A DNA stretch of 64,000 nucleotides. Source: Synergistaceae bacterium. GTDB taxonomy: Bacteria; Synergistota; Synergistia; Synergistales; Aminobacteriaceae. The stretch is from the NCBI GenBank assembly GCA_031277095.1, contig JAISLU010000093.1, positions 1-64,000 of the forward strand, written 5' to 3'. This document shows positions 34,438 to 49,062 of the stretch, piece by piece. The position numbers and the translations under genes are program-made. Position 1 is the first letter of the stretch. Each line of letters begins with the position of its first letter. The notes below the pieces were generated by a model, which was not told the DNA's origin, did not search any database, and worked only from the letters and a program-made list of their open reading frames with translations.

Positions 34438-35946
34438 CTAGAAAGGGAAGGGATCGTCCGTCGTAGCGGGAAGAGGGAGCGAGAGTTCTTCCGATTCCTC
34501 CGACGGGCGCATTCCCGGCGTCGGAACCTGCGGTGAAATCCCCGTCACGACAAAGGCCTTGGGGACGGCTGGGCAGACGTTGAAACATCCCCCGCATCCG
34601 ATACAGTATTCGGCGTCGAAAACGGGAACGGTCAGCGATCCGTCGCCCAGGGGAACCATCCGGAGGGCATGGGTGGGGCAGACCTCGGCGCAGGCCCCGC
34701 AGGACTGCCGTTTCGTGACCACCACGCAGTTCTCCCGGGTGAAATCCGACAGGGCGATCCGCGTCCGCTGCTTTTCATCCCGGGACAGCGGACGCAGCGC
34801 CTCCGTGGGACAAACGTGGCCGCACTCCGTGCAATTGTACTGACAATACCCCCGGGTGTAGTCCAACTGAGGGAGGAAACTTCGGTCAGCTCTCACGATC
34901 CCCACCGGGCAGGCCGCAACGCAGGCCAGGCATCCGATGCAGCGAAGGGCGAAGTGTTCGGCGCTCACAGCGCCCGGCGGCCCGATCCTGTCCTCGAACG
35001 CCGCCCCGTCGGGGGATTTGCCTCGCAGAAGACCTCCCAAACCGCGCAGCGTCGGCACGGCCAGATAGCTCAGCCCCGCCAGATAGCTCAGGACGTAAGC
35101 GCCTTTTTGGAGAAACGTCCGCCGCGCCCCGCGCTCTTCCCTCCTTTTGGCGGAAGGAACAAACCCATAGTCAAGGGCCCCCACGGCGCAGTGTCCCGCG
35201 CAGCTCAGGCACAACACGCAGCGTTCCCGCTCCAGGGTTTTGTTTTGGGCGTCGATACAGTTCATGGGACAGGCGTCCTCGCATCGCCCGCAGGAGACGC
35301 AGGTTTCCCGGTCCAGCTTCATTCCCAGAAAAGAGGTGCGGGAACAGAGCCCCAAAAGCGTTCCCACCGGGCACCAGTCGCAAAAACGGCGGCCTTTGAC
35401 GGCGGCGAAGGCCAGAATGACGGCGAAGACGGCCAGATTTGCCCCCACCCCAGGGGTGACGGACTTTTCCGTCACGAGAGTGAAAAGCCCCCGCACTCCG
35501 TGTCCAAAGTTCCCCATGGGGTCCATGACGGCAAAAAGGGGGAAAAGAGCAAAAAGCAACCCTATCCCGGCCAGACAGGGAAGAAGATAGCGCAAAGGCC
35601 AGGGGGAAACGTACCTCGAAAAGAAAATTTTTCTTCGCCCAGCCAGCTTGGCCAGCCTCCGAACGATTTCCTGGGCCGTGCCCAAGGGGCAGGCTGCGCT
35701 GCAATACCAGCGCCCGAACAGCGCGGCGACGGCAAGCCACCCAAACACAACGACACTCCTCGGGGCGTCACGGATTAGAGTTCCGGAAATCTGACCCTCC
35801 ATCAATAGGGCCCGCACGTCCCTCCACTGCAGCAGCGAGGACGTAAAAACCCGGATAAAAAGCACAAGCACACCCACGGCCACACACAAACGCGCCCAAG
35901 CCAGAAGTCTGTACCTGAGGCGCTTTCCCTTTAGGAATCCCGGCAT
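34438..35946 (-). CDS. Membrane-bound polyferredoxin (NapH/NosR-like)
   Basis: N-terminal TM segments; about six Cys-cluster motifs (e.g. CVSCGRCEDACP, CIGCLACVAACP, CIGCGGCFNVCP). Confidence 0.88.
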   Translation of the reverse strand: MPGFLKGKRLRYRLLAWARLCVAVGVLVLFIRVFTSSLLQWRDVRALLMEGQISGTLIRDAPRSVVVFGWLAVAALFGRWYCSAACPLGTAQEIVRRLAKLAGRRKIFFSRYVSPWPLRYLLPCLAGIGLLFALFPLFAVMDPMGNFGHGVRGLFTLVTEKSVTPGVGANLAVFAVILAFAAVKGRRFCDWCPVGTLLGLCSRTSFLGMKLDRETCVSCGRCEDACPMNCIDAQNKTLERERCVLCLSCAGHCAVGALDYGFVPSAKRREERGARRTFLQKGAYVLSYLAGLSYLAVPTLRGLGGLLRGKSPDGAAFEDRIGPPGAVSAEHFALRCIGCLACVAACPVGIVRADRSFLPQLDYTRGYCQYNCTECGHVCPTEALRPLSRDEKQRTRIALSDFTRENCVVVTKRQSCGACAEVCPTHALRMVPLGDGSLTVPVFDAEYCIGCGGCFNVCPAVPKAFVVTGISPQVPTPGMRPSEESEELSLPLPATTDDPFPF

Positions 35947-35947
35947 G

Positions 35948-36865
35948 TCACAAAACCAGGCGTTCGATTTTCAGCTTCGTAAGGTCGATTTGTCCGAACC
36001 CCGCCTCCGCGGCGAGACGAATGTGCCCGATCTCCGCAGGTTCCCGGCCCAGGAGCCTCGCCGAGGCGGCGTCCGCCGCCACGATATCGGGCGATAGAAT
36101 GAGAGCGTTCATGGCGACGACGTCATCCGGGGAGCCGCCTCTCGGCCCGTGGCGCGTGATGACCCGATGGGCATCCACGACGCTCAGGTCGGGCTTGCGG
36201 ACGTGCAGGAAATCCGCGATGCAGGCCTGAAGGCCCTTGGCATGATACTCTCCCCGGTTCCAGATACACCCCATCAGGTTCTTCATGGCGATGCTGACGC
36301 CCGCTCCGCCGTGGTGCTTCAGCACGGGAAGGCTGATCAGAACGTCGCTCTCCAAAAGAGCTTCGTGGACTCGCGTCGTTTTCAGCACCGAGCCGGGCAG
36401 GTCGACTTTCTGGTAATACCCCTCGCTCTCCGATGGAGCGTAGATCCCGCCGGAGGCTTTGACGGCAGCTCCGACGCCGCTGGTACTCCAGGAACTCTCC
36501 CAATACTCTATCGAATGATCCAGAACCAGAACGCGCTTCGCCCCCGCGTCCAGACAATGTTTTATCACCCGCGCCGTCAGCTGCGGGGAGGTGTTGGCCG
36601 CGGAGTCCTCGGAAACATCCCACGATACGTTGGGCTTGAGGACGACGGTTTGCCCGGATTTTACGAAACGGCCCATCCCCCCCAGCGCCTCGATGCCGCG
36701 GTCGAACATGGCCTGGGGAGATGCCCCTTTCAGTGCGACCAGATCGGGCGGCGGCTCGTTGGCCAAAACTCGGGAAACACCGCTGCGGAGTCCCTTGGGG
36801 AAAAAGAGTACCCCCGCCCCCAGGCCGAGGGCCAAAGATTTTTTCAAAAATTCACGTCGTTCCAT
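35948..36865 (-). CDS. DUF362 domain protein with Tat-like signal
   Basis: MERREFLKKSLALGLGAGVLFF; VVLKPNVSWD...; LPVLKHHGGAGVSIAMKNLMG. Confidence 0.88.
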   Translation of the reverse strand: MERREFLKKSLALGLGAGVLFFPKGLRSGVSRVLANEPPPDLVALKGASPQAMFDRGIEALGGMGRFVKSGQTVVLKPNVSWDVSEDSAANTSPQLTARVIKHCLDAGAKRVLVLDHSIEYWESSWSTSGVGAAVKASGGIYAPSESEGYYQKVDLPGSVLKTTRVHEALLESDVLISLPVLKHHGGAGVSIAMKNLMGCIWNRGEYHAKGLQACIADFLHVRKPDLSVVDAHRVITRHGPRGGSPDDVVAMNALILSPDIVAADAASARLLGREPAEIGHIRLAAEAGFGQIDLTKLKIERLVL

Positions 36866-37344: not shown

Positions 37345-38391
37345 GTGGAAAAGAAATCTTTGATTCGCAGAGCGGCCCTGTGGCTCTTTGTTACGATAAT
37401 GTTTTGCGTGCCGTCCATGGCGGATGCGGCAAATTACAGGGGAACCGTTACATTCCAGGTTGAGCTTTTGGAGGCGGAGAAGGGCAAAAAAGCCGAAAGT
37501 GCCCGGCTGTGGCTTCCCTATCCTTTGTCCGACGCATCGCAGACGATATCAGAGGTAGACATAAAAAGCGATGCCCTTGTCTCGACCTTGGGCGTTGAGA
37601 ACGATCCGCGCAGCGGCGCGGTGTACCTTGCCGCCTCATGGAAAAACACCACAAACACGCCAACGCTCACGTTGCGCTTCGATATCGACTCTCACTATAA
37701 AAAAATCGAGGAGCTTCGGGAGGTGGACGCGCCGTTTCCTCCAGAGGTTCTTCCCTACCTGGAGGGTTCCGAAGCTCTGCCCCTCGACGACCCGATGTTT
37801 GCAAGCCTGGTGGAAAAACTTAAAACCGAGATCTCTATTCTGAAAAGAGCGCGCCTTGTCTACGACTGGGTGATCGAGAACACGTTTCGTGACAACAGCA
37901 TCAAAGGATGCGGATTGGGACTGCCAATTCGGACTCTGACGGACATGAAGGGCGCGGGGAAATGCGCGGACATCAGCTCGGTCTATCTTTTGGTCGCGCG
38001 TGCCGCGGGCATCCCCACTCGCGACGTTTACGGCCTGCGCATGGCCTCTCCGAAGACCGGAAAAATAACGGGGGATTTCCACTGCTGGCTGGAGTTTTAT
38101 CTTCCTGGCACGGGATGGGTCCCTATAGATCCTGCCGACGTCCGTAAAGCGATGCTGACGGAAAAGATCGAACTGAAAGATGCCGGCAAGTGGATCGAAT
38201 TTTTCTGGGGAGGGGACGATCTCTTTCGTATCGCTCTGAACCGCGGCTCCCGGGACATGGTCCTGAGCGACGCCACAAAAGCGCGTCCGCTCACTTACTT
38301 TATGTATCCTTATGCTGAAATCGACGGGATCGCAAAAGATTACTTCGATTCCGAAAACTTCAAGTACACCGTGACGTTGGATCTGAAATAA
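37345..38391 (+). CDS. Secreted transglutaminase-like protein
   Basis: GKCADISSVYLLVARAAGIPTRDVYGLR; DFHCWLEFYLPGTGWVPIDPADV. Confidence 0.85.
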   Translation: MEKKSLIRRAALWLFVTIMFCVPSMADAANYRGTVTFQVELLEAEKGKKAESARLWLPYPLSDASQTISEVDIKSDALVSTLGVENDPRSGAVYLAASWKNTTNTPTLTLRFDIDSHYKKIEELREVDAPFPPEVLPYLEGSEALPLDDPMFASLVEKLKTEISILKRARLVYDWVIENTFRDNSIKGCGLGLPIRTLTDMKGAGKCADISSVYLLVARAAGIPTRDVYGLRMASPKTGKITGDFHCWLEFYLPGTGWVPIDPADVRKAMLTEKIELKDAGKWIEFFWGGDDLFRIALNRGSRDMVLSDATKARPLTYFMYPYAEIDGIAKDYFDSENFKYTVTLDLK

Positions 38392-38404
38392 GCCCGGCAG
38401 CGAG

Positions 38405-39154
38405 ATGACCCCTGTCAAGCATTCTCCCGGAGTGAAATCCCTTCACGCTTCGAGGGTTTTCGTTGCCGTCGTTTTTGCAGCCGCCATAGCCGCTTACTTT
38501 ATTTATCCCCCATACGCGGACGTTCTCAATCGCGTTTTCTCGCCCTTCGCCAGCGGGGACTTTGCCGTAATGAAGGAATTTGTCGCTCAGTACGGCAAAA
38601 TGGCGGCGGTGGTGTCCTTTTTCCTGATGATCTTCCAATCCATCGCGGCGCCGCTGCCCGCTTTCTTGATAACCTTCGCCAACGCCAATCTTTTCGGCTG
38701 GTGGCAGGGGGCTATTCTTTCCTGGAGCAGCGCCATGGCCGGAGCCGCCGTTTGTTTCTACATCGCGCGCATACTGGGGCGCGGCGCGGCGGAGGCGTTG
38801 ACCAGCAAGGCCGGCTTGAGGTCTATCGACGATTTCTTTGAGCGCCACGGAAACCAAAGCGTCCTCATCGCCCGTCTGCTGCCCTTCGTCTCCTTCGACT
38901 TCGTCAGCTACGCCGCAGGGCTAACATCTATGAACTTCTGGGGTTTCTTTGCGGCTACCGGCATCGGGCAGCTACCGGCGACGATCGTATACTCCTACGT
39001 GGGGGGAATGCTGACCGGCGGCGCCCGACTGTTCGTCACGGGGCTGCTGGTGCTTTTCGCGCTGTCCGTGCTGATTGTGTTGACGCGTCAAATTTACGCG
39101 GAGCGCCAAGCGCGCAAAAAGGCAGAGAATGCCCCAGTCACCCAGGCAAAATAA
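38405..39154 (+). CDS. TVP38/TMEM64 family membrane protein
   Basis: FLITFANANLFGWWQGAILSWSSAMAGAAVCFYIARILGR; LLPFVSFDFVSYAAGL. Confidence 0.87.
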   Translation: MTPVKHSPGVKSLHASRVFVAVVFAAAIAAYFIYPPYADVLNRVFSPFASGDFAVMKEFVAQYGKMAAVVSFFLMIFQSIAAPLPAFLITFANANLFGWWQGAILSWSSAMAGAAVCFYIARILGRGAAEALTSKAGLRSIDDFFERHGNQSVLIARLLPFVSFDFVSYAAGLTSMNFWGFFAATGIGQLPATIVYSYVGGMLTGGARLFVTGLLVLFALSVLIVLTRQIYAERQARKKAENAPVTQAK

Positions 39155-39998
39155 TCGAAAAAATAAGCCGGGAAAAGGCGATAAAAGGCTCTGGGGCGTG
39201 AGACTGCACCAATGCCTGAGCTTCTCCGGTTTGTTCGACAAAAGCGCCTTTTTTGGAGGAGAATGGGCGTTTTTTCCAGGGTGCAGCATGGCGTCCCACA
39301 GTCCCGACCTGGTGATGACGGTGTTTCGATATCTCCGGAGCATCTACCCGGATATGGGATTGTTGGGAAATTGCTGCGGTCAGCCGGCTTTGGCTTTGAG
39401 TGGAGGACCGTTTCCCAAATACCGGGAAATCCTGGAGCGCCGTTTCCAGGGGGTTGCCCGGGTGGTCGTCTGCTGCCCCAACTGCGCGGTCACCCTGAGG
39501 CGCATTCCCCATCTGGAGGTCGTGTCGATCTGGCAGGTGCTGCGGGAACATTTGCCGGAGCCTGGCAAAATTCCGGGGCTTCCGTCCTTCGTTCTTCACG
39601 ACCCATGCCCGACCCGAAACGAGCCGAAAGTTCACGAAGCGGTGCGTTACGTTCTCTCCCATTCCGGAGTCGTCTTTGAGGAATATCCCTCCAACAGAGA
39701 GAAAACCCTCTGCTGCGGCCGCGCCAACATGCTCATGGTCCGAAATCCGGAAAAAGGACGGGAAATGCTCATGCGCAGAGTCTCCCAGAGTCCCTGCCCC
39801 CATATCGTGACCTACTGTTTTTCCTGCGCGGACGCGTTCAAAAGCGCGGGATACCCGGCCCTTCACGGGTTGGATTATCTTTTCGCTCCGGCCGAAAAAA
39901 TCGATTTGAACCTTCGCGAGAGCCTGGTCCGGGCCTGGCGAAACCGCTGGATTACGGCGCGGCGCATTGCCGCCCTCGGAGGAGAAACGCTGCCATGA
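39129..39998 (+). CDS. (Fe-S)-binding CCG-domain protein
   Basis: GNCCGQPALA, VCCPNCAVTLR, TLCCGRANML, YCFSCADAFKSAG. Confidence 0.82.
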   Translation: MPQSPRQNNRKNKPGKGDKRLWGVRLHQCLSFSGLFDKSAFFGGEWAFFPGCSMASHSPDLVMTVFRYLRSIYPDMGLLGNCCGQPALALSGGPFPKYREILERRFQGVARVVVCCPNCAVTLRRIPHLEVVSIWQVLREHLPEPGKIPGLPSFVLHDPCPTRNEPKVHEAVRYVLSHSGVVFEEYPSNREKTLCCGRANMLMVRNPEKGREMLMRRVSQSPCPHIVTYCFSCADAFKSAGYPALHGLDYLFAPAEKIDLNLRESLVRAWRNRWITARRIAALGGETLP

Positions 39999-40708
39999 AA
40001 GGGTATTTCAGGCCTTTCTGCCTTCTCTCGATCGTCGTCCTGATTTTCTTTCTGAACAGGCATTACGGCTGGAGCCGAATCGTCGCCGAGGAGAAGGGTT
40101 TGATGTTTTTGCAAGAGATGGTAAAGGAAAATCTTGTCGGGGCATCTCTGGCCTACGTAGCTGCGACGGTGATGTGCTGCGTGGTTTTGGCGCTGCCGGG
40201 GGTGACCTTCGCTCTTTTCGCCGGGCTCTTGTTCGGGCCGGTTTTTGGGACGCTGCTTTGTCTTTTTGCCGCAACCCTTGGCGCCGCACTGGCTTTCCTC
40301 GTCGGGCGCTATTTTCTGAGGGACGCCGTGAAGCCCATGATAGAAAAAAACCGTCATTTAAGGCGGCTGCTGTTCGACGACATCGGAAAAAGCGGAATGG
40401 CGCTTTTGATGATCACCCGGCTTTTACCCTTTTTTCCCTATAACCTCCAGAACTTCGCCTATGGGATCACGGGTATCGGTTTTTGGCCTTACACTGTTTA
40501 CACCTTTATCTTTTTGTTTCCCGGAGTGGCGTTTTTTACGATCGGGGCGGCGGGGATAGCCGACCGCGAAAATCGATGGATTTGTTTCCTTGCGGCGGGG
40601 CTGCTCGCGCTCGCGGCAACGATTTTTGGGCTGTATCTGCACAAACGTTATATCGAGACCCTGAAACTTCATGATACGAAAACGGAAAAATCAGAACAAA
40701 TTCGATAA
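39995..40708 (+). CDS. TVP38/TMEM64 family membrane protein (second paralog)
   Basis: LFAGLLFGPVFGTLLCLFAATLGAALAFLVGRYFLRD; RLLPFFPYNLQNFAYGIT. Confidence 0.87.
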   Translation: MKGYFRPFCLLSIVVLIFFLNRHYGWSRIVAEEKGLMFLQEMVKENLVGASLAYVAATVMCCVVLALPGVTFALFAGLLFGPVFGTLLCLFAATLGAALAFLVGRYFLRDAVKPMIEKNRHLRRLLFDDIGKSGMALLMITRLLPFFPYNLQNFAYGITGIGFWPYTVYTFIFLFPGVAFFTIGAAGIADRENRWICFLAAGLLALAATIFGLYLHKRYIETLKLHDTKTEKSEQIR

Positions 40709-40738
40709 TTTATGAGGAATTTATGAGGAGGAAGTAAG

Positions 40739-41383
40739 ATGAAGAAGTATGTTGCGTGTGCCGTTGTTTTTCTGGCGCTGGTGGCCCTAGAGACTTTTTC
40801 TTGCCCTGTGTGGGCAGCCCGCACGGACCTGTCCATCGAGGTGAATAAGGAAAAACGTGAAGTTATCGTGCCGGCCGAGGTCAACGGTAAATACTTCGAC
40901 GTACCCACGCGCCACGGAGTTTCCTACGTGGGAGGTTCTAACGGAGAAAAATCAATATTGCGCGCGCTGTCCGACGAAAAGAAATTCCACGAGGCTTTGG
41001 TCGAGATCGGTGCGGTACCCGGCAACAACGTAAAAATGGACGACATGAAGGCCGGTCCCGATAGCGGCGTATCCGTGGAGGGAAGCAAACTGGACGTTTT
41101 CGTCACATGGGAGGGAAGCAAAGGAGAAATTCCCTTTGACGACCTCATCAAGGCCAGCGAAGAACGCCCCTCCGATTATCGGTTCGCCGGCAATCTCGAA
41201 GTGGCGAAAACCGCCAACGCGGGATGTATACTCTGTCTGGACAGTTGTGCCGCCGGAATCACCAGCAACGCATCTTATCCGACCGGAACGACTCAGCACA
41301 ACCTTGTCGAATTTGTCGGTGACAAGGACGTCCTGCCTCCCGACGGTACTCGGGTCTTCGTGATTTTCCGTCTCGCGCAATAA
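40739..41383 (+). CDS. Secreted YdjY-like domain protein
   Basis: Signal peptide; VNKEKREVIVPAEVNGKYFDVPTRHGVSYVGGSNGEKSILRALSDEKKFHEALVEIGAVPGNN. Confidence 0.65.
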   Translation: MKKYVACAVVFLALVALETFSCPVWAARTDLSIEVNKEKREVIVPAEVNGKYFDVPTRHGVSYVGGSNGEKSILRALSDEKKFHEALVEIGAVPGNNVKMDDMKAGPDSGVSVEGSKLDVFVTWEGSKGEIPFDDLIKASEERPSDYRFAGNLEVAKTANAGCILCLDSCAAGITSNASYPTGTTQHNLVEFVGDKDVLPPDGTRVFVIFRLAQ

Positions 41384-41391
41384 CGGCGAGA

Positions 41392-41796
41392 ATGATAGCG
41401 GCAATAAAAGCTCTGTATAACGCTTTCCCTATCGCCATGCTGGCAGGCACGGCACTTTTCCGAATCACGTGGCTCGAAATGCGGGTCAACTTGGGCTGGA
41501 TTTTTTTTGCCTTGTGGGGAATCTTGGCCGTCATCCTTGGAACATGGAGCCGTTTTTTCGTTAAACTCCTCGATGTTCGGGGAACGACGGCGAATCTTTG
41601 CGTCTGTGGGCTGGGCATATTCCTTTTGTCGGGCAGGACTCGCCTGTTCTCCACGCCCGCCGCCCTTATTCGGGAAGGGCTGGGCTTGACTCGCCTGCCT
41701 TTCCTGTGGATCAACGCAACCATAGCCGGTTTCTTGCTCTTAGGCTGGCTTGCCCTGTTTTTCGCGAACCGAAAACAAAGGGCGCCGAGAAACTGA
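41392..41796 (+). CDS. Small hypothetical membrane protein
   Basis: Several hydrophobic segments; co-directional with the cluster. Confidence 0.5.
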   Translation: MIAAIKALYNAFPIAMLAGTALFRITWLEMRVNLGWIFFALWGILAVILGTWSRFFVKLLDVRGTTANLCVCGLGIFLLSGRTRLFSTPAALIREGLGLTRLPFLWINATIAGFLLLGWLALFFANRKQRAPRN

Positions 41797-41883
41797 CCCA
41801 ACCCCTGCGGGGTATGCCCGGCACGGGGGTGTCCCGCAGAGAGGTCAAGCAACGCCATATTCACCAAAACAGGAGGAAAGAAA

Positions 41884-42216
41884 ATGTCCACTTATTATGA
41901 AGCCGACGATCTGCCGAAATTCGGAACGATGGGGGAGGAAGCCCCTCAGTTGTGGGAGAAATTCATGTCGTATTACGGAGCGGTCTTCGCCGAGGGCGCC
42001 CTGACCGCCCGGGAGAAATCTCTGATCGCCCTGGCTGTGGCGGAGGCCGTGCAGTGCCCTTACTGTATCGATTCCTACACTCAGGACTGCCTGACCAAGG
42101 GGATCACCGAGGCGCAAATGACCGAGGCCACACACGTTGCCGCGGCCATACGCGGAGGCGCGACCCTGGCTCACGGCCTGCAGATGAAAAACGTCGTCAA
42201 AAAACTGGAGTTGTGA
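41884..42216 (+). CDS. Arsenosugar biosynthesis-associated peroxidase-like (carboxymuconolactone decarboxylase family) protein
   Basis: AVAEAVQCPYCIDSYTQDCLTKGITEAQMTEATHVAAAIRGGATLAHGLQ; overlaps the ArsS-like start. Confidence 0.83.
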   Translation: MSTYYEADDLPKFGTMGEEAPQLWEKFMSYYGAVFAEGALTAREKSLIALAVAEAVQCPYCIDSYTQDCLTKGITEAQMTEATHVAAAIRGGATLAHGLQMKNVVKKLEL

Positions 42217-43202
42217 TGACCGCTCTGGATTTGGAAAACGCCGCGCCCATCCCGCCTTTCGCCTCCATGATTTCGGACGCGGCGCTGCGCGAGACAAAGG
42301 AGAGGCTCTCCACTCTGCAGATCAATCTGGGACGGCTTTGCAACCTCTCCTGCAAACACTGTCATTTGGAAGCCGGGCCGGAGCGCAAGGAGATCATGAG
42401 CGAGACGGTGCTGAACGCCTGTTTGCAGTTTATGAGGGAGCAGAATTTCGCCACCGTCGATATCACGGGAGGGGCGCCGGAACTTCACCCGCGCTTCCGC
42501 GACTTCGTGTCCGAGGCGAGGCCCTTTTGCCGCCGAATGATCCTGCGCACCAATCTGGTGCTTCTTCTGGAGCCCGATTACGACGACCTGCCGGACTTTT
42601 TTCGGGACCATCGGCTGGAGGTGGTGTGTTCTCTGCCCCACTACACGCCCCAAAACACCGACCGGATACGCGGCGGCGGAATTTTCCAGGCCTCCATAGC
42701 GGCGCTGCAAAAACTCAACCAACGGGGCTACGGCCGGAAAAACGAACATGACCTTGTCCTCGACCTCGTATTCAACCCCGGCGGGGCTTTTCTTCCCCCC
42801 GCCCAAGCGGCGCTGGAACAAGAATACAGGCAGGCGCTCCGGCGGGATTTCGGCATCGAGTTCGACAACCTGCTGACCTTGACCAACAATCCCCTGGGGC
42901 GCTTCGGCGCTTTTCTCCGACGTTCCGGCAACCTGGAGAGCTACCTGGGAAAACTCCATCAGGCCTTCAACCCCACGACCCTGGAAGGCATGATGTGCCG
43001 GGATCAAATATCCGTCGCCTACGACGGCGGCCTTTACGACTGCGATTTCAACCAGGCCGCGGAATTGCCCGCCGGGGACGCGACGATTTTCGGCTGGCTG
43101 GGGCGGCCCGTCAAGAAAAGGCGTATCCGGTTCGGGCAGCACTGTTACGCCTGCACTGCCGGACAGGGTTCGAGTTGCGGCGGGGCAATCAAGACCTCGT
43201 AA
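42216..43202 (+). CDS. arsS: ArsS-type radical SAM protein (arsenosugar biosynthesis family)
   Basis: LQINLGRLCNLSCKHCHLEAGPER; VDITGGAPELHPRF; C-terminal CYACTAGQGSSCGGAI; overlapping TGATG start. Confidence 0.87.
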   Translation: MTALDLENAAPIPPFASMISDAALRETKERLSTLQINLGRLCNLSCKHCHLEAGPERKEIMSETVLNACLQFMREQNFATVDITGGAPELHPRFRDFVSEARPFCRRMILRTNLVLLLEPDYDDLPDFFRDHRLEVVCSLPHYTPQNTDRIRGGGIFQASIAALQKLNQRGYGRKNEHDLVLDLVFNPGGAFLPPAQAALEQEYRQALRRDFGIEFDNLLTLTNNPLGRFGAFLRRSGNLESYLGKLHQAFNPTTLEGMMCRDQISVAYDGGLYDCDFNQAAELPAGDATIFGWLGRPVKKRRIRFGQHCYACTAGQGSSCGGAIKTS

Positions 43203-43203
43203 G

Positions 43204-43255
43204 ATGATTTCAGTTTATGATTTCGGTTTATGATTTCAGTCTATGATTTCGATTA
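43204..43255 (+). repeat. 13-bp tandem repeat duplicating the glycosyltransferase start codon
   Basis: ATGATTTCAGTTT / ATGATTTCGGTTT / ATGATTTCAGTCT / ATGATTTCGATT. Confidence 0.93.
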
Positions 43256-43956
43256 TCGTTCCTCTGTACAACGAAGAGAAAACCATAACGAACCTGCTCC
43301 TGCAACTGAGCCGCCTGGCTGGAGCCCATGAAATTCTGCTGGCGGACGGCGGAAGCACGGACCGTACCCGAGAGCTGGCCCAAGAGATGTTATCTCAAGA
43401 GATGTTATCTCAAGCGTCGCTCTCGAAAGCCCGCCTGCTGGGGGCGCCGCGGGGGCGGGCGGCCCAGAGCAACGCCGCGGCCCGTGAGGCCGCTGGGGAG
43501 ATCCTTTTTTTTCTCCACGCCGACAGCCAAATCCAGCCGGACACTCTGGGGCATATCGAAAAGGCCGTGTCGGAGGGAGCGACTTGGGGTTGCTTGACGC
43601 TTCGTTTTGACGAAGAGCATCCGCTGACGGCCCTTTGCGCGTATTTTTCCAATCTGCGGGTGCGGTTGGCGAGGATTGCCTTCGGTGATCAGGGGATTTT
43701 CATCAGGAGGGATGCTTTCTTGAAAGAAAGCGGATTCCCCGAGCTGCCCTTGATGGAAGATTACGAGTTTTCCCTGCGCCTCAGACGGCGGAGGATTTTC
43801 CCCGTCCAGCTCCCCTGTCCCATCGTCACATCGGCGCGGCGTTTTCGGGAACACGGCCGTTTGCGTACACTGTTCCTGATGTGGCGGTTGCGCCGCCTTT
43901 ACCGGAAGGGCTGCGATATTCAGCTCATAGCCGCCCGCTACCGCCAGGTACGTTAG
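43243..43956 (+). CDS. Family 2 glycosyltransferase, TIGR04283-like
   Basis: ISIIVPLYNEEKTI; LLADGGSTDRTRELA; GRAAQSNAAAREAAGEILFFLHADSQ. Confidence 0.87.
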   Translation: MISIIVPLYNEEKTITNLLLQLSRLAGAHEILLADGGSTDRTRELAQEMLSQEMLSQASLSKARLLGAPRGRAAQSNAAAREAAGEILFFLHADSQIQPDTLGHIEKAVSEGATWGCLTLRFDEEHPLTALCAYFSNLRVRLARIAFGDQGIFIRRDAFLKESGFPELPLMEDYEFSLRLRRRRIFPVQLPCPIVTSARRFREHGRLRTLFLMWRLRRLYRKGCDIQLIAARYRQVR

Positions 43957-43964
43957 GGGGCAAT

Positions 43965-44648
43965 ATGGCATATACCGATACCCCACCAAAGGAAGCTCTG
44001 ATACTCTTCACTCGGCTGCCTATACCGGGACAGACCAAAACACGCCTGATGCCCTGGCTCACCCCGGAACAGTGCGCGGCGCTCCATCGCGCCATGCTCA
44101 GAGACATATGCGGGACGCTGCGGCGGACGGGCGGCGACATTTTTATTTTTTACACCCCGAAGGGAGATGCGGCGGAACTGCGCCAACTCTGCGGCGAAGC
44201 GTCTTATCTGGCCCAGGAGGGAGCCGACCTTGGAGAACGCATGGACAGGGCAACGCGGGAAATTCTCAGCCGCGGTTATGCCTCGTGCCTCTTGCTGGGC
44301 TCCGACATTCCCTCGGTGACGGAAGAAGATCTGGGAGCCGCAAGGGCGTTGCTTTCAAAACACGATGCCGTCTTGGCTCCTACCGAGGACGGGGGGTATT
44401 GGCTGGTCGGGCTCAAAGGGCCCTGCAGTTCGATTTTCATTCACCCCTATTACGGCTCCGCACGCGCTTTCGAGGCGGCGAGAAGGGGATGTATGCAGGC
44501 AAACCTCTCTCTCGCCCTGGGAGCCAAACTGCGGGACATTGACGAAATAGACGACCTCCGTCATTACGCGGCGCACCCGGGAACGAAGATGCCCTATAGT
44601 CAAAGCCTGATAAACAGGCTGACGGCCCCGGGAGTGAAAGTTATTTAA
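43965..44648 (+). CDS. Glycosyltransferase, TIGR04282-like
   Basis: LILFTRLPIPGQTKTRLMPWLTPEQCA; LLLGSDIPSVTEEDL; LAPTEDGGYWLVGLK. Confidence 0.88.
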   Translation: MAYTDTPPKEALILFTRLPIPGQTKTRLMPWLTPEQCAALHRAMLRDICGTLRRTGGDIFIFYTPKGDAAELRQLCGEASYLAQEGADLGERMDRATREILSRGYASCLLLGSDIPSVTEEDLGAARALLSKHDAVLAPTEDGGYWLVGLKGPCSSIFIHPYYGSARAFEAARRGCMQANLSLALGAKLRDIDEIDDLRHYAAHPGTKMPYSQSLINRLTAPGVKVI

Positions 44649-45078
44649 AGGGGTCTTGCGCCAGCAGTTTTCGTATCTCCTCGGGAGCGTAAAGGCGGCC
44701 CTCGTTCATGCCTGGGCATTGGACCGCTTGTCTGTCCCACTCTTCCCGCGACTCCATCACGGAGTCCCAAAAAGGAAAAAGCGAACATTGCGCGGGGCGC
44801 AGGGGATAGATCAAACACTTCGAGCTTTCGGCGTCATAAAAAACGCAATCGCCGTTCCGCCGCTCGATAAAGCTGGGGTTGCCCCATTTCCCCGTGACGT
44901 ACAAGTGACGGAACGCCTTTTCGTCTAGGTTAAAGAAATGTAAAAGACGCGCTTCCTCTTCAGGAGTGAAAAAAATAGCGCCGGGTTCTCCCCGGCAGCA
45001 TCTTCCGCAACCTATACAGGTGAAACGAACTCCCTCGTTCCACCATTCCCCCGGCTCAGACGGTTGGCTCTTTTTCAT
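44641..45078 (-). CDS. YkgJ-family zinc/iron-chelating Cys-cluster protein
   Basis: FTCIGCGRCCRGEPGAIFFTPEEE; CLIYPLRPAQCSLFPFW. Confidence 0.88.
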   Translation of the reverse strand: MKKSQPSEPGEWWNEGVRFTCIGCGRCCRGEPGAIFFTPEEEARLLHFFNLDEKAFRHLYVTGKWGNPSFIERRNGDCVFYDAESSKCLIYPLRPAQCSLFPFWDSVMESREEWDRQAVQCPGMNEGRLYAPEEIRKLLAQDPFK

Positions 45079-45430: not shown

Positions 45431-46624
45431 TCACATGTTGATCAGCTGGCCGTGAAGTGCCCCAGCTTCGTTGATAGCCTGAAGGATCTCGATCACGTCC
45501 CTGGGAGTGGCCCCAATGGCGTTGATGACCCGAACCAAATCGCGCACCGTGGTGGTGGAGGGCATGGCGATGAAACTCGTGCCATCCTCGTCGGTGGTGA
45601 CATCCGTCCGATTTTCCGTCGCCGTCCGCCCTCCGCTCAGAGGATCGGGCTGCACCACGGTAGGGTCCTCGGCCACGGAAACGGTCAGGTTTCCATGAGC
45701 AACGGCCACCGAACTGATTTTGACGTCTCCGCCCATCACAACGGTGCCGGTGCGCTCGTTCACCGCCACCCGTGCGGACACGTCGGGCTGAATCTCCAGC
45801 TTCTCCATTTTGGCCACGAACGCCGTGGGCGCCCCGACGTATTGCCCTGGAAGGTCCACCACCACGCGTCCCGCGTCCACAGGAAAGGCCACAGCCCCGA
45901 AGACCGAGTTGATGGTGTCCGCAATTCTCTGGGCCGTGGTGAAGTCGGGTGTGCGCAAAAGGAGCCCCATTTGTTCTCCTCCGCCGTAGTCCGTCGGCAC
46001 GTCCCGCTCGACGATGGCTCCATTGGGAATGCGCCCCGTCGTAGGAACGTTTTTCGTCGTCGTCGCCGCCGACCCCGAAGCAGTGTACCCGCCCACCAGG
46101 ATCGGCCCCTGGGCCACAGCGTAGATGTTGCCGTCTGCGGCCTTCAATGGGGACTGGAGCAACATTCCGCCCTGAAGGCTTTTGGCGTCGCCCAGGGTGC
46201 TGACGTTCAGGTCGATGGTCTGGCCGGGACGCACGTAGGGTGGAAGATCCGCCGTCAGAGAAACCACCGCCACGTTCTTGCTGCGTATGGATCTTTCGTC
46301 GACGGTCACACCGTACTGCTGCAGCATGTTCTTCATCATCTGCCCCGCCATCGGGGATTTGTCCCCCGTTCCGGCGAGTCCCGTCACGATGCCGATCCCC
46401 GAGAGCTGGTTGGGGCGCGCGCCCTCCACTTCCACGACATCCTTGATGCGCACCTGAGGATGCACCCGGCCGAAATCCATATCTCGAAGGTTCACCGCCC
46501 CCATAGCCGCAACAGGCCATAATGCGCAGAAAAAAATCAGAAATGACTTCAACAGAAATATTTTTAATCCCGAAATATCAAACTTGGCAATACACGGTGC
46601 CTTCATCTTGTGTTTCCTCTCCAT
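45431..46624 (-). CDS. flgI: Flagellar P-ring protein FlgI
   Basis: VRIKDVVEVEGARPNQLSGIGIVTGLAGTGDKS; AINEAGALHGQLINM. Confidence 0.95.
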   Translation of the reverse strand: MERKHKMKAPCIAKFDISGLKIFLLKSFLIFFCALWPVAAMGAVNLRDMDFGRVHPQVRIKDVVEVEGARPNQLSGIGIVTGLAGTGDKSPMAGQMMKNMLQQYGVTVDERSIRSKNVAVVSLTADLPPYVRPGQTIDLNVSTLGDAKSLQGGMLLQSPLKAADGNIYAVAQGPILVGGYTASGSAATTTKNVPTTGRIPNGAIVERDVPTDYGGGEQMGLLLRTPDFTTAQRIADTINSVFGAVAFPVDAGRVVVDLPGQYVGAPTAFVAKMEKLEIQPDVSARVAVNERTGTVVMGGDVKISSVAVAHGNLTVSVAEDPTVVQPDPLSGGRTATENRTDVTTDEDGTSFIAMPSTTTVRDLVRVINAIGATPRDVIEILQAINEAGALHGQLINM

Positions 46625-46644
46625 TTCCTCTGCCTTTCCGGAAT

Positions 46645-47244
46645 CTAGAAGATAGCCTGAAGCACCTGAGTGAGAATTCCGGGCTTCTGGGTACGGCTCA
46701 AAGCGCCCTTGCCCTTTATGCCCAATTCTGCGTTTGCGATCAAGCTGCTGCGGATCTGGTTGTTGCTGTTGAAGTCTTGAGGTCGGACAACACCTACCAA
46801 TTGCAATTGCAGCGTTTCTTCGCTGGTCCTCACATCACGGGTTCCCTCGATGACGAGGTTTCCATTGGGCAGCACGTCCGTCACGACGCAGGATATGGTC
46901 GTTCTCCCATAATGTTTGCGTTCGATGGAACTATCGCCTTTAGCGTCGTTCGTGGAGGTCAGTCCCAACTGGCGAATAAAGCTCAAAATCCCTGTCCCGT
47001 TGCTGACCGCGTTGCTGGAGCTTTTTTTCAGGTCCGTAACGGCCTTGTCCTTGGTGTCCGTCTGCTCGTCCACCATCACCGTCACGATGTCGCCTATTCG
47101 GCTCGGGCGCTGGTCCGCGATCCAATTGGTTTTGTCGTTCCAAAGAGAAACGGCCTCGGCACGACTCGTTCCCGTGGGAAAAATCCCCGTCTTGCACATA
47201 AAACACGCAAACATCAACAAAAAAAACACTCGCGATTTATTCAC
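46645..47244 (-). CDS. flgH: Flagellar L-ring protein FlgH
   Basis: RPSRIGDIVTVMVDEQT; LPNGNLVIEGTRDV; GVVRPQDF. Confidence 0.93.
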   Translation of the reverse strand: MNKSRVFFLLMFACFMCKTGIFPTGTSRAEAVSLWNDKTNWIADQRPSRIGDIVTVMVDEQTDTKDKAVTDLKKSSSNAVSNGTGILSFIRQLGLTSTNDAKGDSSIERKHYGRTTISCVVTDVLPNGNLVIEGTRDVRTSEETLQLQLVGVVRPQDFNSNNQIRSSLIANAELGIKGKGALSRTQKPGILTQVLQAIF

Positions 47245-48254
47245 GGCACTTTCACCTCCACCGTATCGTCCGTCACAACGACCGCCGTTACAACGGCCTT
47301 ACTGGCAGTATTACGCACCTTGATCGAGTCGCCCAGGGCCCCGTTTTCCAGGGCCTCGCCTTGGGTCTTGACCGTTATGCCCGCACTCTGCACGAGAATA
47401 GTGACTCTTTTCCCTTTTTCTATTATCGGCACCTCTACGAGCAAGTTGAGAAGGATCGCCTCCCCTTGAGAGAGGTTTTTTCTCGGAGAACGCCCGATTG
47501 CCTGAGACGCCGCCGAGGCGTACACCCCGGGCCTGTTCACCCGAATTGGGCGTAAGGCGAAGTCGGATGCTTTCAGGATTTCGCCTTTTTTGACGGACCG
47601 GGTGAGGATCAGAGCAGGCTGACTCCACGTAAGCCTGACGGCCAGAGAACGCTCCTTCCCGGCCGCGTCCTGAAACTTCAAAGTCGCGGCGGACGTCCCT
47701 GGGACGATGGAGGCCGGGGACACCAGGCGGCCGTCGGGAACGGAACCTCGATAGTGTACCTCCACCTCCCCCTCCCAGGAGGAAAGAGATTTGATCCGCC
47801 CCGCCAATTCCTCTTGTTCAATATTTTCTCTTTCAATATCTTCTTTCCCAATATCTTCTTTTTCAATATCTTCTTTTTCCAGATCCTCCTGAGCCGCAAT
47901 CTCGACTCTGACGGTCGCGGGCATCTTCAACTCCACGCGCACGTCCTCCAGCCCGCTGACCTTCAGGGCGTCGATCACCTGCTCCCGGGTGATGACTCCG
48001 TTTTGTGCCGACAAAAGCAGAGCCCCTGCCCGCTCCGTCAAATCCCGGCTTCCTTGGAGAGTCGCGATGTCGGACAAAGCGCAGGCTTCCCCCTCCATCC
48101 TGACGACGGCCGGGATGGAAACGCGCAGCGTCTGAGCCCCGTCGCTGGGAGAAGCGAGCAAAAGAGCCGCGAACACCAACCCGACCCACGAAGAAAAAAC
48201 AAAAAAACGGCGGAACCCTCTCCGCCGTCGGATTTGCCCTTTCTGTCTCTTCAT
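47241..48254 (-). CDS. flgA: Flagellar P-ring assembly chaperone FlgA
   Basis: SAF-like C-terminus: LTRSVKKGEILKASDFALRPI..AIGRSPRKNLSQGEAIL. Confidence 0.88.
   Translation of the reverse strand: MKRQKGQIRRRRGFRRFFVFSSWVGLVFAALLLASPSDGAQTLRVSIPAVVRMEGEACALSDIATLQGSRDLTERAGALLLSAQNGVITREQVIDALKVSGLEDVRVELKMPATVRVEIAAQEDLEKEDIEKEDIGKEDIERENIEQEELAGRIKSLSSWEGEVEVHYRGSVPDGRLVSPASIVPGTSAATLKFQDAAGKERSLAVRLTWSQPALILTRSVKKGEILKASDFALRPIRVNRPGVYASAASQAIGRSPRKNLSQGEAILLNLLVEVPIIEKGKRVTILVQSAGITVKTQGEALENGALGDSIKVRNTASKAVVTAVVVTDDTVEVKVP
47808..47890 (-). repeat. In-frame 15-bp degenerate tandem repeat in flgA
   Basis: EDLEK EDIEK EDIGK EDIER ENIEQ EELAG. Confidence 0.88.
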
Positions 48255-48270
48255 ATTCGTTTCTTTATGC

Positions 48271-49062
48271 CTATCGCTTCAAGCCGTTGGCGATCCGCAA
48301 AAGATCGTCCGCCGTCTGCACGCCCTTGGAGTTGGCTTCGTACGCCCTTTGGGCAACGATCATACTCACCATCTCATCCACCACCTGGACGTTGGACATC
48401 TCCAGAACGCCCTGGCGAACCTCCGACATGCCGTCAACGCCCGGCTCGGCCAGAATGGGAGGACCGCTGGCGTCCGTCTCCGCGAAGAGGTTGCCGCCCA
48501 CGGCCAAAAGCCCCGCCGGATTGATGAAACGCGCCAGCTCCAACTGACCGATATCCTGAGTGGCAGTCTGACCCGCCAACTGCACGGAGATGGTGCCGTC
48601 GTTGCTCAACATGATCTGAACCGCGTCCTGGGGGATGAGAATGGCGGGCTCCAGCAAAAGGCCCTCGTGGTTCACCACCTGGCCGTCTCCGTCCACTTGC
48701 CATGCGCCGGCGCGCGTATATCCGATGGTGCCGTCCGGCATGGTGACCTGAAAATAACCTTGTCCGCCGGCGATGGTCCAGTCCAGGGGATTGTCCGTCA
48801 CCTGCAAGTTGCCCTCGGTCATGAAAGAAGGCGTCCCGATCACCCGTGTCCCCAAACCCACCTGAACGCCCGTGGGGATCGTGGAGGCCGGGTCCACCGG
48901 CGTGCCGGGCTGGCGGTCGATCTGATAGATCAGATCCTGAAAATCCGCGCGGCGTTTTTTATACCCCGTGGTGTTGACGTTGGCCAAGTTGTGGGACACC
49001 ACATCCAAGTTCGTCTGCTGCGCGATCATACCCGAGGCGCTGGACCAAAGCGATCTCAACAT
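48271..49062 (-). CDS. flgG: Flagellar distal rod protein FlgG
   Basis: MLRSLWSSASGMIAQQTNLDVVSHNLANVNTTGYK; MVSMIVAQRAYEANSKGVQTAD. Confidence 0.95.
   Translation of the reverse strand: MLRSLWSSASGMIAQQTNLDVVSHNLANVNTTGYKKRRADFQDLIYQIDRQPGTPVDPASTIPTGVQVGLGTRVIGTPSFMTEGNLQVTDNPLDWTIAGGQGYFQVTMPDGTIGYTRAGAWQVDGDGQVVNHEGLLLEPAILIPQDAVQIMLSNDGTISVQLAGQTATQDIGQLELARFINPAGLLAVGGNLFAETDASGPPILAEPGVDGMSEVRQGVLEMSNVQVVDEMVSMIVAQRAYEANSKGVQTADDLLRIANGLKR

Follow-up and report, generated by a model that had tools for sequence, protein, structure and literature searches.

Genes of the cluster

The window analyzed here is a 64,000-nucleotide stretch (positions 1 to 64,000 of contig JAISLU010000093.1) from a Synergistaceae bacterium (assembly GCA_031277095.1; a 2.72 Mb draft in 113 contigs, 94% complete), and the subject of this analysis is a gene cluster that encodes ArsS, a radical S-adenosylmethionine (SAM) enzyme. 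An initial annotation, made from the sequence alone, had described nine co-directional genes at positions 38405-44648 as an arsenosugar-type biosynthetic cluster without arsM. All nine genes are in place on one strand and mostly overlap or are separated by a few bases (Table 1). Family assignments were made with NCBIfam profiles against their curated cut-offs, along with Pfam, and the labels given to ArsS, the peroxidase-like protein (PEROX) and both glycosyltransferases (GTs) passed this check. The proposed interval, however, starts too late: about a dozen ArsS loci of Synergistota have a gene for a transglutaminase-like protein (TGL) ahead of TVP38, and we therefore placed the start of the cluster at 37345, although TGL is assigned to it less firmly than the TVP38, CCG and YdjY genes.

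Table 1. Genes of the ArsS cluster, with positions in the window
Gene	Position (strand)	Product	Profile match
TGL	37345..38391 (+)	secreted transglutaminase-like protein with signal-like N-terminus; first gene of the cluster	PF01841, 69.8 bits (Pfam)
TVP1	38405..39154 (+)	TVP38/DedA-family membrane protein, YdjZ type	VTT domain, 94.7 bits (Pfam)
CCG	39129..39998 (+)	soluble HdrB-like protein (Fe-S reductase type) with two CCG cysteine motifs	PF02754
TVP2	39995..40708 (+)	TVP38/DedA-family membrane protein, YdjX type	VTT domain, 72.3 bits (Pfam)
YdjY	40739..41383 (+)	exported protein; invariant GCxxCxxSC motif	NF040466, 145.6 bits (cut-off 50)
MEM	41392..41796 (+)	small membrane protein	matches no known family
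PEROX	41884..42216 (+)	AhpD/CMD-type peroxidase-like protein with CPYC motif	TIGR04169, 189.3 (cut-off 120)
ArsS	42216..43202 (+)	radical SAM enzyme with C-terminal DUF3641 (PF12345)	TIGR04167, 419.5 (cut-off 300)
GT283	43243..43956 (+)	GT2-type glycosyltransferase	TIGR04283, 232.3 bits (cut-off 182)
GT282	43965..44648 (+)	CofC-like nucleotide-sugar-transferase-type protein	TIGR04282, 179.5 bits (cut-off 134)

ArsS aligns to positions 4-303 of the 303 positions of its profile, matches the Radical_SAM domain of Pfam in addition to DUF3641 and retains the CxxxCxxC motif; each of C42, C46, C49, C261, C276, C310 and C313 is found in 97% or more of 107 sequences, and these residues match the cysteines of the Pseudanabaena ArsS, which adjoins ArsM. 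Three cysteines of YdjY (C163, C166 and C170) are invariant in 13 homologs; a predicted model of this protein (predicted local distance difference test score, pLDDT, of 87.6) yielded no fold match in the PDB at E <= 0.001. The CCG protein also matches the C-terminal part of NF045663 (NCBIfam) with 159 bits. For GT282, which has a solved relative (3cgx), the ATG at 43965 was taken as the start, with a TTG at 43953 as a possible alternative. No RNA elements were found in the window, and a promoter scan of the window gave no more matches than shuffled sequences do.

Conservation and links among the cluster genes

Gene neighborhoods were counted in 80 ArsS loci from a genome collection, many of which are incomplete. 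PEROX is present in 77 of these loci, TVP1 in 40, CCG in 34, TVP2 in 30, GT283 in 29, GT282 in 21, YdjY in 17 and MEM in 12, and the gene order recurs across Synergistota, Lachnospiraceae and other Clostridia. Co-occurrence was analyzed in 188 Synergistota genomes, 28 with ArsS above the cut-off (ArsS+) and 160 without (ArsS-), with additional permutation within genera, so that kinship is handled to the genus level. YdjY is exclusive to ArsS+ genomes (18/28 compared to 0/160; p = 2e-18) and GT282 is strongly enriched in them (26/28 compared to 9/160; p = 4e-22); both associations hold within genera. In 16 of the 18 genomes with YdjY, the gene lies on the same contig as ArsS, within a few kilobases, and the remaining two have the cluster divided between contigs.

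Furthermore, several of the proteins are fused in other loci. A YdjX-type TVP38 protein, GT282 and CCG form one open reading frame (ORF) without an internal stop in two loci (L015 and L045), and single ORFs also combine GT282 with CCG (L062), GT282 with GT283 (many Lachnospiraceae) and YdjY with a rhodanese (L045). Additional fusions join a YdjZ-type TVP38 protein to MEM (L018 and, apparently, L077) and a TGL-like region to a rhodanese (L030 and L033). The membrane and Fe-S proteins are therefore tied directly to the glycosyltransferases. Four other apparent fusions (PEROX-ArsS, ArsS-C_GCA, rhodanese-C_GCA and GT-phosphotransferase) were dropped because they were produced by reading through TGA; these are separate genes with true stops.

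The initial annotation had raised the possibility that the upstream membrane and redox genes belong to the same pathway as ArsS. The recurrence of the TVP38 pair, CCG and YdjY beside arsS in relatives, the exclusive co-occurrence of YdjY and the fusions that involve TVP38, CCG and YdjY strongly support the membership of these genes in an ArsS-linked module. A literature search of partial coverage found nothing on ArsS with TVP38 or YdjY, so that an earlier report is possible.

TVP1 is 59% identical to YdjZ of E. coli, TVP2 36% to YdjX, and the YdjY proteins of the two bacteria share 39% identity; thus, counterparts of all three E. coli proteins are encoded together in one gene run of the window. 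In E. coli, the ydjXYZ-ynjABCD and ynjE operons are activated by FNR without oxygen, and ydjXYZ-ynjAB are listed as predicted proteins only (PMC3688515). The similarity extends to YnjE, given that related ArsS clusters are accompanied by YnjE-type rhodaneses, mostly 36-43% identical to the E. coli protein. In contrast, the ydjXYZ-ynjABCD operon includes an ATP-binding cassette (ABC) transporter and no ArsS, CCG or GT genes, whereas neither the YnjBCD transporter nor a YnjE rhodanese is present in the window cluster. E. coli YnjA was rejected as the PEROX ortholog, the match being weak and limited to 19 residues, which is compatible with a distant relation only. Within the same partial coverage, no paper linking ydjXYZ-ynjABCD to ArsS was found. 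The comparison joins the FNR-activated ydjXYZ-ynjABCDE genes, of unexplained function, to gut anaerobes that encode ArsS but not ArsM, and the fusions and the exclusive co-occurrence name concrete partner proteins for a pathway so far known by two enzymes.

The nearest relative of the window ArsS, with 80% identity, comes from a Synergistaceae metagenome-assembled genome (G146, locus L002); the contig that carries it is 4.2 kb long, its bin is 7% contaminated, and the sequence may be mis-binned. In a quick tree, the window ArsS clusters with five other Synergistota sequences inside an otherwise clostridial set, away from the main Synergistota group, a placement which suggests that the cluster moved between phyla.

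Arsenic and selenium as candidate substrates

The cluster represents a genuine and conserved variant of the ArsS pathway, of an anaerobe type. Its ten parts belong together, and the PEROX-ArsS pair is separable from a core that consists of the two TVP38 proteins, CCG and the two glycosyltransferases, joined in relatives by a rhodanese. That the ten-gene operon (37345-44648) constitutes an anaerobe-type ArsS pathway of two sub-modules, with arsenic as the most likely substrate, has in our estimate an even chance of being correct. Among the candidate elements, arsenic is the likeliest, at about even chances, with selenium or sulfur as a live rival; arsenic is ranked first because of the chemistry of cyanobacterial-type ArsS, for which adenosylation of arsenic in arsenosugar synthesis is established (review PMC12159101), and because of the ArsM fusions.

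Five of the 80 anaerobe loci hold ArsM-like genes no more than 10 kb from ArsS. These genes adjoin or are fused to ArsS in some anaerobes: in Suipraeoptans, an ArsM-like gene lies directly upstream in an ArsM-PEROX-ArsS run, and in Adlercreutzia (L071:5042-7216, minus strand) a single protein of 725 residues combines an ArsM-like region (NF008823, 182.8 bits) with ArsS (317.7 bits). Long ORFs with ArsM matches in other Coriobacteria may likewise be ArsM-ArsS fusions. Separately, in the ArsM genes of several anaerobes (L119-L124), an in-frame TGA occupies a conserved site, which fits the selenoprotein form of ArsM that is already known.

The cyanobacterial ArsM-ArsS pathway (Synechocystis and a Pseudanabaena plasmid, L125) shares with the window all conserved ArsS cysteines, with 45% identity to the Pseudanabaena protein. 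The Pseudanabaena locus, of the order TVP38-MerA-ArsM-TVP38-ArsS, also carries two TVP38 genes. The window, in contrast, lacks ArsM and a MerA-like gene, and contains CCG, YdjY, MEM, PEROX, TGL and two GT genes instead. Among loci of aerobes and phototrophs, ArsS is accompanied by GTs of the TIGR04283 and/or TIGR04282 type in Cupriavidus (L126, with an ArsM-like gene, one TVP38 and both GTs), Hymenobacter (L127), Thiodictyon (L128) and B. glumae (L129); however, YdjY, CCG, MEM and PEROX were not detected in these four loci. The B. glumae locus also contains a gene for S-methyl-5'-thioadenosine phosphorylase (L129:1120-2001) beside the two GT genes and near ArsS, a candidate for the step that removes adenine after ArsS has acted.

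Under the arsenic reading, ArsS is predicted to cleave SAM and to transfer the resulting 5'-deoxyadenosyl radical to a soft element atom held by a thiol. This atom would most likely be trivalent arsenic, taken up either unmethylated or after methylation by other microbes. Thiol or metalloid redox steps could be provided by CCG, which is HdrB-like, and by PEROX, which is AhpD-like and has a CPYC motif, and GT283 and GT282 would glycosylate the product after loss of the adenine. The two DedA-type proteins, along with MEM, YdjY and TGL, are putative membrane-side components of uptake, trapping or export, with the three invariant cysteines of YdjY as candidate ligands for a metalloid or a thiol. 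Should the substrate be arsenic, gut bacteria could build complex organo-arsenicals from dietary arsenic.

Several observations weigh against arsenic. The absence of arsM from the cluster, recorded in the initial annotation, extends to the source genome: at its 94% completeness, a profile search found no ArsM above the cut-off, the best match being a 57-residue fragment with 19.5 bits against a cut-off of 263. Across Synergistota, neither ArsM (7/28 ArsS+ and 41/160 ArsS- genomes) nor the arsenic gene ACR3 (2/28 and 28/160, respectively) is enriched with ArsS, and among all ArsS+ genomes searched ArsM exceeds the cut-off in 14 of 74 (one genome counted twice). The genes that do track the module are those of a selenium trait: SelD is encoded in 26/28 ArsS+ compared to 98/160 ArsS- genomes, and in 12/13 compared to 10/30 within genus g11 (p = 6e-4), and SelA in 27/28 compared to 106/160; ArsS was compared with six gene families in all, and the p-values for SelD and SelA are to be read accordingly. 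Leaving out the possibly mis-binned G146 would strengthen the SelD statistics. In six of the eight ArsS-free GT282 loci examined, CCG and the two GTs are encoded along with TVP38 proteins of both types, and no solved structure is close to ArsS. Thus, the organo-arsenic product proposed in the initial annotation is favored by the ArsM neighbors and fusions, whereas the lack of co-occurrence with ArsM and ACR3 in Synergistota, the existence of the core without ArsS and the closer link of the module to a selenium trait than to arsenic genes speak against it.

The ArsS-free loci show that GT282 is not confined to ArsS-bearing genomes, contrary to the name of the family: nine ArsS-free Synergistota genomes carry it, and the label "arsenosugar biosynthesis glycosyltransferase" that is assigned automatically may be incorrect for many anaerobes. 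The six loci with the complete core have rhodanese-type genes nearby and no ArsS or PEROX gene; therefore, the GT/TVP38/CCG core probably has a role independent of ArsS. A YedE selenium transporter is encoded near one ArsS-free locus, and a cysteine desulfurase and a double-cubane reductase near another. In genus g27, the core is accompanied by a BioB-like protein and an ABC transporter of the sulfonate type. The ATPase and permease of this transporter best match the SaoA and SaoP models of the SAO (Sec-assisted organometallic) system, although their scores do not reach the curated cut-offs, and no such transporter is encoded in the window cluster. The ArsS-free core is found in L160, L161, L166 and L162 (3219-11916); in L162, its neighbors include a BioB-like protein and an ABC importer with best matches, under the cut-off, to the SaoA/SaoP models. 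Genes of the double-cubane-cluster reductase type and TIGR01977-type cysteine desulfurases occur near the TVP38/GT core in L165 (7557-8834), L014, L019, L025, L028 and L042; these neighbors span Synergistota and Lachnospiraceae, some with DUF3343-like and activase genes.

The alternative that survives best is that the module handles selenium or reactive sulfur, with the TVP38 pair, rhodanese, CCG and GTs taking up, reducing and glycosylating the chalcogen and ArsS, in the lineages where it occurs, adenosylating selenium or sulfur; we consider this possible but clearly less probable than arsenic. In addition to the SelD and SelA enrichment, GT282 itself tracks SelD (33/35 GT282+ compared to 91/153 GT282- Synergistota genomes). 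The SelD link appears again among 190 genomes drawn evenly from a Lachnospiraceae family, where all six ArsS+ genomes encode SelD compared to 59 of the 184 others (p = 1e-3), and encode the selenocysteine-type SelD compared to 21/184 (p = 5e-6), and it is also seen in 41 of the 45 ArsS+ genomes of Clostridia and Coriobacteria. The YedE transporter, rhodaneses (one of them weakly similar to ExtH of a selenite operon) and cysteine desulfurases near some loci point in the same direction, as does the existence of the core without ArsS. However, such selenium-linked neighbors are found only in a minority of loci, the ArsM-ArsS fusions indicate arsenic, and the SelD/SelA association is a correlation among related genomes that may stem from shared ecology, with selenocysteine users occupying the same niche as the clusters. 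Moreover, the window cluster genes contain no in-frame TGA, and their proteins thus no selenocysteine. Selenocysteine in the cluster genes was accordingly rejected as the cause of the SelD link; in the Synergistota loci, the TGA codons are at gene ends. The exceptions are the ArsS gene of genome G009 (L154:7530-9749), with two in-frame TGA codons, one of them at SLPxLPGE, that could reflect a frameshift, a pseudogene or recoding, and, as the sole doubtful case among the other 80 loci, the PEROX gene of L056, with two adjacent ones.

A broader version of the selenium/sulfur scheme, in which the TVP38/CCG/YdjY/GT/rhodanese module is a widespread anaerobic selenium/sulfur pathway, E. coli ydjXYZ-ynjABCDE is its reduced version and "ArsS" builds an adenosyl-chalcogen compound in these anaerobes, so that the arsenosugar names are misleading in their case, is more tentative still. 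If selenium or sulfur is the substrate, the module would be a new pathway for that element.

It is unlikely that the cluster acts on a different soft nucleophile or on an intermediate of the cell envelope, in a scheme where the DedA proteins move a lipid carrier on which the GTs act and ArsS modifies the compound. Some DedA proteins are undecaprenyl-phosphate flippases (PMC10127716), and in Lachnospiraceae the GTs occur with a thiamine-kinase-like phosphotransferase, but the TVP38 proteins of the window belong with YdjX and YdjZ, which do not complement the E. coli DedA-type cell division defect (PMC3836016), and no other lipid genes recur. Even less probable is an ordinary arsenosugar pathway with an ArsM missed in the incomplete genome: although about 6% of the genome is missing and ArsM is common in the phylum (48 of the 188 genomes), 20 of the 21 ArsS+ genomes of the same family, the source genome included and many more than 95% complete, lack ArsM, which is also not enriched with ArsS. 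Finally, that the upstream genes are unrelated neighbors of a PEROX-ArsS-GT operon, as might be supposed from the Coriobacteria, where most loci hold PEROX-ArsS without the other genes, is refuted for TVP38, CCG and YdjY, and less firmly for TGL, by the exclusive co-occurrence of YdjY, the gene order kept over two phyla and the fusion of upstream proteins to GT282.

Genes flanking the cluster

On the upstream side, genes for a polyferredoxin-like membrane protein and a DUF362-like exported protein (34438-36865, minus strand) are divergent from the cluster. Downstream, a gene for a cysteine-cluster protein, YkgJ-like by motif (44641-45078, minus strand), converges on the 3' end of GT282 and is followed by flagellar basal-body-type genes, also on the opposite strand (45431-49062). 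A YkgJ gene is likewise found near ArsS in the Thiodictyon plasmid locus.

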